Made by a program: the position numbers and the translations under genes
The notes under the pieces: generated by a model
What the model was told of the DNA's origin: nothing
What the model saw: the letters and a program-made list of their open reading frames with translations, nothing else
The model's database searches: none
In this document: positions 6,951-9,832 of the stretch, in pieces
Layout: every line of letters begins with the position of its first letter
How positions within the stretch are numbered: the stretch's first letter is position 1
Assembly (NCBI RefSeq): GCF_902779965.1
Contig: NZ_CACZDK010000003.1
Location: forward strand, 1-64,000
Source: Fibrobacter succinogenes
GTDB lineage: Bacteria > Fibrobacterota > Fibrobacteria > Fibrobacterales > Fibrobacteraceae
Direction of reading: 5' to 3'
Length of the DNA: 64,000 nucleotides

Positions 6951-6976
6951 AAAAAAGGCCCGGAAAAACCGAGACC
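6951..6976 (-). terminator. Terminator of the first 20-residue peptide gene
   Basis: On the minus strand GGTCTCGG, loop TTTTT, CCGGGCC (one bulge) is followed by seven T. It lies 32 bases past the stop codon of the peptide gene. The second copy has the same spacing but a different stem sequence, followed by the same TTTGCTTG box. Confidence 0.75.
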
Positions 6977-7008: not shown

Positions 7009-7071
7009 TTATGCACGCTTGGAATATTTCTTAAAGCTTTTAATCAAGAGGGCGGCGAGAATGCAGTACAT
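7009..7071 (-). CDS. 20-residue cationic hydrophobic peptide, copy 1
   Basis: This encodes MYCILAALLIKSFKKYSKRA. Residues 2-10 are hydrophobic; the tail has five Lys/Arg and no acidic residue, giving a membrane-seeking cationic profile. AAGGAG sits eight bases before the ATG, a sigma70-like promoter lies upstream and a hairpin terminator downstream, so it looks like a complete single-gene unit. Copy 2 (7543-7605) differs in seven codons: five changes are silent, one is Lys/Arg and one Tyr/Asn, the pattern expected if the protein is under selection. I do not recognise the family. It could be a type I toxin-like peptide, a membrane-protein partner or an antimicrobial-like peptide. A leader peptide for malQ is less likely because a terminator intervenes. 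Confidence 0.75.
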   Translation of the reverse strand: MYCILAALLIKSFKKYSKRA

Positions 7072-7101
7072 TATTTAGACTCCTTGTTTTTGACGGCGCC
7101 A

Positions 7102-7130
7102 ATATTAACAAAGTTTTACTAACACGTCAA
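7102..7130 (-). promoter_or_regulatory. Sigma70-like promoter of peptide gene copy 1
   Basis: On the minus strand TTGACG (7125-7130) and TAATAT (7102-7107) are separated by exactly 17 bases. A palindromic GGCGCC follows just after the -10 box, then AAGGAG and the ATG. The arrangement is conserved in copy 2. Confidence 0.75.
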
Positions 7131-7248
7131 GGTATTTTTGTATATATTTCGGCAACTTTTTTGACAATTTGTCCACGAAACTTTTACAAGACTCCCTTCA
7201 AAAATGAAACTTGCAAAGTTTCGAACAAAACATGGCATCGCACTGCAC

Positions 7249-7409
7249 GCGGGCGGGGCCCCAGCTCAGAGTGGATGCTTTCAGCATCAGCAATTACGGC
7301 TCAGCTATGTTTGCACAAGTGCAACCGCAGCATTCGCCTTTGATGCTACACTCGTTTTGCACGCTACTGCGAAGGAATTGCCTTGGCCGACGCTCCCATT
7401 TTCACAACG
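7249..7409. repeat. Scaffold repeat, copy A (constant boxes, variable hairpins)
   Basis: Shared boxes with copy B are GCGGGCGGGGCCCCA (7249-7263), TTACGGCTCAGC (7294-7305), GCAGCATTCGCCTTT (7327-7341) and GGCCGACGCT (7385-7394). Between them lie perfect hairpins special to this copy: GATGCT/AGCATC (7274-7288) and TTGCAC/GTGCAA (7311-7324). Small ORFs across it have no ribosome site and are judged spurious. Confidence 0.65.
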
Positions 7410-7490
7410 ACAATCATACAAGCCCTTTAATTAAGCATATCGCCTCGCATTACCACATACAAAGAAAAACTTTTTCCTAAAACAAGCAAA

Positions 7491-7509
7491 GCCACGGGAA
7501 ATCCGTGGC
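7491..7509 (-). terminator. Terminator of the second 20-residue peptide gene
   Basis: GCCACGG, five-base loop, CCGTGGC lies 33 bases past the peptide stop codon, followed on the minus strand by TTTGCTTGTTTT. The stem differs from that of copy 1 although the position and following box are conserved. Confidence 0.7.
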
Positions 7510-7542
7510 ATCGCATTCAGTTAGAGAGAGAAACTTTATCCG

Positions 7543-7605
7543 TTAAGCGCGCTTAGAATTTTTTCTAAAGCTCTTGATCAAGAGGGCGGCGAGAATGCAG
7601 TACAT
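7543..7605 (-). CDS. 20-residue cationic hydrophobic peptide, copy 2
   Basis: This encodes MYCILAALLIKSFRKNSKRA, a paralogue of the peptide at 7009-7071 on the same strand 534 bases away. AAGGAG lies seven bases before the ATG (a second AGGAG lies further upstream). The promoter TTGAAA-17-TATCAT and a hairpin terminator complete the unit. Codon differences from copy 1 are mostly silent (ATC/ATT, AAG/AAA, TCT/TCC, CGC/CGT, GCT/GCA), which argues that it is translated. The hydrophobic start and +5 tail suggest membrane association. Function is unknown. The ORF is too short for ordinary gene finders and could be missed in annotation. Confidence 0.75.
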   Translation of the reverse strand: MYCILAALLIKSFRKNSKRA

Positions 7606-7644
7606 TATTTTACTCCTTTTTACTCCTAGTTTTTAACGGCGCCA

Positions 7645-7673
7645 ATGATAACAAATTTTTACTAACGTTTCAA
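7645..7673 (-). promoter_or_regulatory. Sigma70-like promoter of peptide gene copy 2
   Basis: On the minus strand TTGAAA (7668-7673) and TATCAT (7645-7650) are 17 bases apart. The spacer CGTTAGTAAAAATTTGT is nearly the same as in copy 1, and GGCGCC again follows the -10 box. Confidence 0.7.
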
Positions 7674-7728: not shown

Positions 7729-7735
7729 AAAGCAT

Positions 7736-7863
7736 GCGGGCGGGGCCCCATACTTAATCCCATCCTGGCGCAAGCGCCAACCTTACGGCTCAGCAATGGG
7801 GCAGCAAGCAGCCCCGCTGCGTTCGCCTTTTAAGGTTGTGGCCAACGCTTTATTCTCTCAACG
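7736..7863. repeat. Scaffold repeat, copy B
   Basis: It has the same boxes as copy A: GCGGGCGGGGCCCCA (7736-7750), TTACGGCTCAGC (7783-7794), GCTGCGTTCGCCTTT (7816-7830) and GGCCAACGCT (7840-7849). Its hairpins occupy matching places but have other sequences: TGGCGC/GCGCCA (7766-7779) and GGGGC/GCCCC (7798-7815). Stems are kept paired while their bases differ. Confidence 0.65.
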
Positions 7864-8014: not shown

Positions 8015-9832
8015 ATGAAACGTATTTTGCTTTTATGTCTCGGTTTAACAGCATTTGCAGGCGCAAGGCCATCGCTCCAATTCGATAAAGACCGCATCGA
8101 AGCCGGTCAAACTTTCAATTTGCAATTTATCGTTCCTTTGCAGGAACTTCCCCAAGACAGAGGCGCTCTCCATCTAGAAACCCACGACAACTTCAAGTTC
8201 CTTGGGCTTGATAGCGCTGATCAAGTCATGCGCCCAGACATGGACGATATTTTCAATTCGTTTTTCGGCGGTGGCGGAAGATCCTATAAAGCGCGAGTCT
8301 ACTCGTTCAAGGTGAAAGCCCCCAGAAAAACAGGCGTCCTCGATCTTGGAAAACTGACATGGAATATTGGCGGCGAACCAAATGTCGTCAGCAGCAAGAT
8401 TTCGGTTGAAGTGCAACGTTCCTACAACGATGACGCGCTTGCTGTAAGCCTTACCCCAAGCAAAAAATCTATTTATGAAGGTGAACAAATCAGCGTCACC
8501 CTTAGCCTCCACACCTTCGAACATTTTCAAGGCGGCCTTCAAGCGACCGACATGAGCACGGGCAACGACTTTATCGTCCACCGCAACGACCTTTCGAACA
8601 TGGAATTCAAGCATGTCGAAGGCACACGCCGTGAAATGAAGGCGACCACGCGGTTCGCATGGCTCAGCCCGACCAAGAGCGGTTCGCTCGAAATTCCATC
8701 TTTCAAGTTCAAGTATACCAAACTTGGCGAACCCAAAGTTATCGAAGAAAAGAAGCAAATGGGCGGCATGTCTTTCTCTAGCCGCAGCGTAAAGCAGGAG
8801 TCCATTGAAACGGAAACTGCAACCGCACCGCTTTCCATCACCGTTCTCCCGCTCCCGACCGAAGGCAAGCCCGCCGATTTCTCGGGAATGGTCGGCAACT
8901 ACAGCTTTAGCGCCAACTTCGACCGCACAAACCTCAAGGTTGGCGAAGCTTTAACACTCGCGATTAGCATCAAGGGCGACGGCACTCCGGGTACAATTAC
9001 CGAACCAAAGCTCCCCGACTTTAACGATTTCCGCTCCGTGCCGCCCGAAAACAGCATTAACAAGAAGGTCAAAGGCAACAAGGTAATCACATCCAAGGAT
9101 ATCAAGGTGTTCCTCTACCCCAAAAAGAAAGGCACCTTTGAAATTCCGGCCATTACATATTCCTGGTTCAACCCCGCCAAAAAGAAATACGAAACCGCAT
9201 CGGCAGGCCCATGGACCATCGAAGTTGAAAAGGGCGATGCTCCGGCAGAACCTGTTTATCAGGCTCCCGTCGCGACAACACCTGGCTCTTCTACCCCAGT
9301 TGTCCAAAAGCAAGAAATTGAATTCCTCGGCAGCGATATCCGCTTTATCCATGCGATCACGGACAAGTCCGAAACAGCCGCACCGCATAGGAGCGCACTG
9401 TTCTGGATTCTTTTCCTCGCAGCCATTCCATTCTACTTGATTGCAAACTTCGCCATCACAAGAAAGCGCAAGCGCAATAGCAACACAGCACTCGTCCGCA
9501 AGGGCAAGGCAAACAAGCTGCTCAAGGAAAAGTTCGCAAACGCACGCACAGCCCTCAAGAACGGCGACGGTAAGGCATTCTTTGCCGCACTCGAAAATGG
9601 CCTTATCGACTACCTCAGCAACTTGACGAACGTCGAATTCAAGGGCATGACCCGCCCGCAAATGAAACAGGAACTCACCAAACGCGGTGTGAATAACGAA
9701 ACGATTGAAGCCATCAACAGCTGGCTTGAAAAATGCTCGTTCGTGCGTTTTGCTCCGGTCACTGCCACGACCGAAGAACAGTCCCAAATGCTCGCGGATG
9801 TCGAAAAACTTTGCGAGGCACTGAAGCTGTAA
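8015..9832 (+). CDS. batD: BatD-type exported protein (aerotolerance Bat family)
   Basis: BatD proteins belong to Bat (Bacteroides aerotolerance) loci and act at the cytoplasmic membrane with von Willebrand-domain partners; the precise role is unsettled. The ATG at 8015 is preferred to an in-frame ATG at 7976 because it begins a clean signal peptide (MKRILLLCLGLTAFAGARP). The exported part, to about residue 475, is a series of beta-rich domains with Ser/Pro-rich stretches. A single membrane helix (ALFWILFLAAIPFYLIANFA) is followed by a basic stop-transfer sequence and about 120 cytoplasmic residues. batE follows after 63 bases. batA, batB and batC are not in the window, so this is a partial Bat cluster. 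Confidence 0.83.
   Translation: MKRILLLCLGLTAFAGARPSLQFDKDRIEAGQTFNLQFIVPLQELPQDRGALHLETHDNFKFLGLDSADQVMRPDMDDIFNSFFGGGGRSYKARVYSFKVKAPRKTGVLDLGKLTWNIGGEPNVVSSKISVEVQRSYNDDALAVSLTPSKKSIYEGEQISVTLSLHTFEHFQGGLQATDMSTGNDFIVHRNDLSNMEFKHVEGTRREMKATTRFAWLSPTKSGSLEIPSFKFKYTKLGEPKVIEEKKQMGGMSFSSRSVKQESIETETATAPLSITVLPLPTEGKPADFSGMVGNYSFSANFDRTNLKVGEALTLAISIKGDGTPGTITEPKLPDFNDFRSVPPENSINKKVKGNKVITSKDIKVFLYPKKKGTFEIPAITYSWFNPAKKKYETASAGPWTIEVEKGDAPAEPVYQAPVATTPGSSTPVVQKQEIEFLGSDIRFIHAITDKSETAAPHRSALFWILFLAAIPFYLIANFAITRKRKRNSNTALVRKGKANKLLKEKFANARTALKNGDGKAFFAALENGLIDYLSNLTNVEFKGMTRPQMKQELTKRGVNNETIEAINSWLEKCSFVRFAPVTATTEEQSQMLADVEKLCEALKL

Follow-up and report, generated by a model that had tools for sequence, protein, structure and literature searches.

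A selected 20-residue peptide gene with its own near-invariant promoter in Fibrobacter, and its possible role as a membrane-associated factor

Two paralogous units on the minus strand of a 64,000-nucleotide stretch of Fibrobacter succinogenes DNA (contig NZ_CACZDK010000003.1; hereafter the window) carry open reading frames of only 20 codons. They raise the question of whether such short frames are genes at all and, if so, whether their hydrophobic, cationic products are type I toxins, as an earlier note on this DNA had hinted. ORF 1, encoding the 20-aa peptide MYCILAALLIKSFKKYSKRA, spans 7009..7071 including the stop codon and was supported by tblastn and its coding signature. ORF 2, encoding the 20-aa peptide MYCILAALLIKSFRKNSKRA, spans 7543..7605 including the stop and was supported by a profile search and its coding signature.

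Nearly all of the architecture described in the earlier note was recovered. Both transcription units are present, and both promoters have sigma-70-like hexamers separated by 17 nt. The unit 1 promoter (7099..7130, minus strand) pairs a -35 TTGACG (7125-7130) with a -10 TAATAT (7102-7107); its core motif, GTAAANNNTTGTTANNATTGG, occupies 7099-7119, a GC-rich discriminator follows directly, and transcription probably starts at ~7095-7096. In unit 2 (promoter 7642..7673, minus strand), TTGAAA (7668-7673) is paired with TATCAT (7645-7650), the core motif lies at 7642-7662, and the probable start is at ~7638-7639. Sequence reading placed ribosome binding sites, AAGGAG or GGAG, 7-8 nt 5' of the ATG: AAGGAG at 7080..7085 in unit 1, at a distance of 8 nt, and AAAGGAG at 7613..7619 in unit 2, which has a second GGAG at 7623-7626 (all minus strand). 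Each unit also ends in an intrinsic terminator stem-loop on the same strand (6959..6973 for unit 1, 7491..7509 for unit 2), the hairpins starting 34-36 nt after the stop codon. The seven codon differences between the ORFs likewise held, five being silent and one K14R; the seventh, absent from that account, is Y16N. A dispersed GC-rich intergenic repeat (GCGGGCGGGGCCCC...TTACGGCTCAGC...) is present twice here, between the units at 7240-7420 and beside them at 7732-7830, and a 261-base query matched 38 times in the genome of the window. This repeat does not belong to the units but explains some of the distance that separates them.

Searching with the 20-mer by tblastn recovered an intact peptide from 65 of the 111 genomes of the family, every one in the window's genus and with one or two copies each. 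Across 168 phylum genomes, a profile search returned no convincing peptide match beyond the genus Fibrobacter; matches outside it had E values of 0.03 or worse, and the two inspected (L102, L103) lacked the MYC start. The profile search also uncovered a further clade (L095-L099) in which the same promoter precedes MYCLLAYLIVKQLKSGKALI. Five more genomes thus have a divergent form of the peptide, MYCLLAYL(V/I)(V/I)KQ(L/I)K(S/A)GKALI, written in other codons. All 37 loci from the named genome collection belong to Fibrobacter or Fibrobacterales. Two copies occur mainly in the window's clade, with a single copy in most genomes. Because some congeners have no copy, the gene is not essential to the genus.

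The variants are 18, 20, 21, or 22 aa long, differ in length by whole codons, and always follow one plan: MYC, then a run of roughly seven hydrophobic residues, then a tail rich in Lys/Arg. In all 29 variants tested, the first ten residues are hydrophobic, the net charge is +3 to +6, and there is no acidic residue. Among 57 distinct 20-codon ORFs, pS was 0.465 and pN 0.063, and a wider comparison gave similar frame 0 values (pS 0.446, pN 0.063; pN/pS 0.14). Sense frames 1 and 2 had pN above pS (ratio above 1), so the coding signature is confined to sense frame 0. Of the 20 codons, 18 vary at the third position, compared with 6 at the first or second. These values bear out the earlier suspicion that the peptide itself is selected. 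Relatives were also examined for loss of the frame or internal stops in homologues, and none was found; the sole flagged stop (in G045) is where an 18-aa version naturally ends, in frame. On this comparative evidence, both ORFs are real genes whose frame is under selection as protein-coding, in a pattern that far exceeds chance. Within the 57 ORFs, codons 3, 5, and 7 show almost no synonymous variation, a hint that the RNA itself is constrained close to the start.

Free drift of the flanking DNA, proposed at the outset, applies to the leader and 3'UTR but not to the promoter core, which is conserved like the peptide and, outside the ORF, more strongly than any other DNA. This core (spacer and -10) is essentially invariant across 78 aligned units, with GTAAA, TTA, and TTGG unchanged in 78/78, and the same units share a CCTTG -35 region and GC-rich discriminator as its flanks and an A+T-rich tract upstream. 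Apart from the two units, the window's genome has no copy of the core at up to one mismatch, nor of a longer 33-base promoter motif at up to three mismatches. In 30 additional genomes from the genus and family, presence of the motif essentially follows that of the peptide; the one exception is a promoter-like match in another genus (G001), which had no peptide behind it and was discarded. A near-invariant promoter used by this gene alone implies a dedicated control circuit.

The genomic setting is similarly stable on one side. In nearly all genomes the unit is divergent from batD (PF13584), encoded in the window at 8015..9832 on the plus strand; we treat BatD as a conserved locus landmark and make no claim of partnership with the peptide. 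On the other side the neighbor varies, being a convergent mqnC-like radical SAM gene in 33 loci (best NCBIfam match TIGR03699, just below the cut-off) and a co-directional 4-alpha-glucanotransferase gene in the window's clade. Four peptide-free congeners (G028, G048, G055, G058) have mqnC and batD adjacent with a gap under ~100 nt, and the same arrangement occurs in a member of another genus (L124). The most economical interpretation places the gain of the unit in the mqnC-batD gap inside the genus, with duplication following in the window's clade. Three relatives (L013, L018, L032) have one copy that has the promoter type of one window unit and the terminator of the other, as would be expected from recombination joining tandem copies. 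In G044 and G046 a divergent version, MYCLIAALVIMNQKKRFRKSRA, lies at an unrelated place, so a position next to batD is not obligatory. Judged by sequence comparison, then, selection has kept the peptide, the promoter core, the terminator position, and the locus in one genus.

Some loci (L107/L130 in G079, L003, L005, L016) have a second batD-like gene, only ~45% identical, beside the peptide or beside the normal batD; we take this to mean that batD was duplicated or replaced in one clade. The only IMG/VR match, contig 3300028887_003856 (L094), carries both units and the same 4-alpha-glucanotransferase start; it is listed as viral, and its flanks identify this end as Fibrobacter chromosome.

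As the earlier note had supposed, the peptide belongs to no known family: Pfam, NCBIfam, PHROGs, PADLOC, and PDB gave no match above threshold. Rfam, applied to the whole window at gathering score, returned nothing, the best weak matches near the units being sub-threshold and from unrelated families. One variant resembles the SE2200 family small protein (NF040843), at 13.6 bits over residues 3-19 of 20, but this likeness (E 0.054) is far under the 30-bit cut-off, and 18 of 19 scanned members had no match. The literature searched for Fibrobacter small RNAs and small proteins held nothing relevant and no description of the gene. The kind of gene, encoding a small membrane-type protein, is a known one; its family and private control element appear to be new.

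We favor, with confidence and doubt about evenly balanced, the explanation that each unit is strongly transcribed and encodes a small peptide, specific to the genus and associated with the membrane, whose role is probably that of a regulator or accessory factor and not of a toxin; the transcript may be a dual-function RNA. Each would be an autonomous small-protein gene, with a dedicated promoter giving a transcript of ~140-190 nt and an open ribosome site directing synthesis of an 18-22 residue peptide. The N-terminal decapeptide would dip into the cytoplasmic membrane at its inner leaflet, and the basic tail would rest against the head groups of acidic phospholipids or against a membrane protein. 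The invariant Cys3 may provide a disulfide, metal, or redox contact, and duplication in the window's clade may increase dosage, or divide control between two promoters and two 3'UTRs that differ slightly. Conservation, reading frame, promoter, and transcript ends can be read from the sequence, whereas we infer the expression level, translation, membrane location, and function of the peptide. Since ~9-10 hydrophobic residues are short for a transmembrane helix, membrane association is argued from composition only.

YohP, MgtS, and AcrZ are small single-segment bacterial membrane regulators. The Fibrobacter peptide is like regulators of this type in being leaderless and shorter than 50 aa, in joining a hydrophobic segment to a charged end, and in having its own promoter and conservation in one lineage. 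It differs in that its hydrophobic stretch is only ~9-10 residues and there is no sequence match. YohP is a described example of a small membrane protein (PMC12719787).

The main rival is that the transcript is a dual-function RNA, encoding the peptide and also base-pairing through a CU-rich 3' element, for example with purine-rich ribosome sites of other mRNAs; we regard this as possible, if on the unlikely side. A selected small ORF is compatible with such an RNA, and the near-fixed synonymous sites of codons 3, 5, and 7, together with the conserved CU-rich element, indicate that the RNA may bear part of the selection. A YTCTCTC run follows the stop in 46 of 78 3'UTRs (0.9 expected from shuffles), and across 638 kb of strand-bases the YTCTCTCTC 9-mer is confined to these units. 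In unit 2 the element (TTCTCTCTC) lies in the 3'UTR at 7524..7532 on the minus strand. It is kept in divergent copies: CTCTC was invariant in 17 of them, chosen among those carrying the element, with flanks that are unalignable. Both ends of the transcript are predicted to be structured. A 5'-terminal stem-loop of the inferred transcript was present in 32 of 38 distinct leaders of at least 40 nt, compared with 4.1 expected from shuffling, the long leaders being related and their counts therefore not independent events. RNAalifold recovered the same 5' stem, with changes on both sides that preserve the pairs (covariation). The window units themselves have short leaders without this stem. One gene in the genome, with a signal-peptide-like start (L189; G000 contig C48, near 19792), has AGAGAGAGAA directly 5' of its ATG. 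This is a perfect complement of the CU element and possibly a target, or else a coincidence.

Other observations weigh against a base-pairing role. The CU element is absent from unit 1 and from several clades, and the strongest constraint falls on the amino acids. At least one other gene, ending ...GVYILRRKK (L185; G000 contig C25, near 12654), has the same TTCTCTCTCT run between its stop codon and terminator. Because the stretch also occurs at another gene's 3' end, it may be a rare general 3' element, perhaps for Rho loading or stability. Hfq is common, though not obligatory, among base-pairing RNAs, and Hfq (PF17209) was not detected in the window's genome (G000, 97% complete) by a search that finds it in 5 control genomes. 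SgrS/SgrT and RNAIII are dual-function small RNAs that contain a small ORF. The units share with them a short structured transcript that combines an ORF with a conserved non-coding segment, but here no Hfq was found, and what is conserved is a plain CU run with a putative role. We consider it unlikely that peptide and RNA work jointly, as a regulatory cassette gained once in Fibrobacter and made up of the private promoter, a structured mRNA, the membrane peptide, and the CU element, in a bacterium that apparently lacks Hfq.

The hint of a type I toxin was not supported, and we judge it quite unlikely that the peptide depolarises the membrane unless an antisense RNA blocks its translation. Its size, hydrophobicity, and cationic C-terminus do match membrane type I toxins, which are small hydrophobic peptides of less than 60 aa with cationic residues mostly C-terminal (PMC8309996). 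IbsC tolerates truncation to 15 residues, 10 of them hydrophobic (PMC8309996). Like Ibs, ShoB, TisB, Fst/Ldr, AapA1, and TimP, the units appear to combine a tiny hydrophobic cationic peptide with a short monocistronic transcript, and they are tandem in one clade. Unlike those systems, they have no conserved antisense promoter: antisense scores were near the shuffled level, at 8.2 compared with 7.9 (9.1 for the sense promoter), with no fixed position across the 78 units, in agreement with the earlier failure to find a convincing one. Type I toxin mRNAs are typically translationally inactive as transcribed (PMC11228461), whereas the ribosome site here is not sequestered, its predicted unpaired probability being 0.56 compared with 0.54 in shuffled context. 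The unit further differs in occupying a single stable chromosomal site, near-core in the genus and mostly single-copy, and in its very slow sequence change. No carrier of the unit was found in plasmid and phage records, and no described toxin family in Pfam, NCBIfam, PADLOC, or PHROGs matched above threshold. An antitoxin RNA encoded in trans, distant from the unit and lacking a consensus promoter, is possible.

Export without a signal peptide, as a leaderless modulin-, bacteriocin-, or pheromone-like peptide, seems decidedly improbable. A short, cationic, partly amphipathic product with no signal peptide cleavage context, made from a strong-promoter architecture, would suit this role. No exporter, immunity, or receptor gene accompanies the unit, however; its only companion is batD, which is retained where the unit is missing. 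The nearly invariant sequence is also unlike that of peptides involved in rivalry. A leader peptide or attenuator governing the next downstream gene, suggested by the order of small ORF, terminator, and co-directional 4-alpha-glucanotransferase gene in the window, has almost no probability, being contradicted by a downstream neighbor that changes by clade and is often convergent (the mqnC-like gene in 33 loci).

The preferred reading, a small membrane-associated regulator or accessory factor, concerns one of the shortest gene products for which selection can be demonstrated from sequence alone. The gene is below usual annotation length limits and is unnamed in the family libraries and literature searched, and its host is the rumen's main fibre-degrading genus. 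Its private promoter implies a dedicated control circuit, which should be open to identification. Should the peptide prove abundant, it would be a new membrane factor in a lineage where little is known of regulation by small proteins and RNAs.
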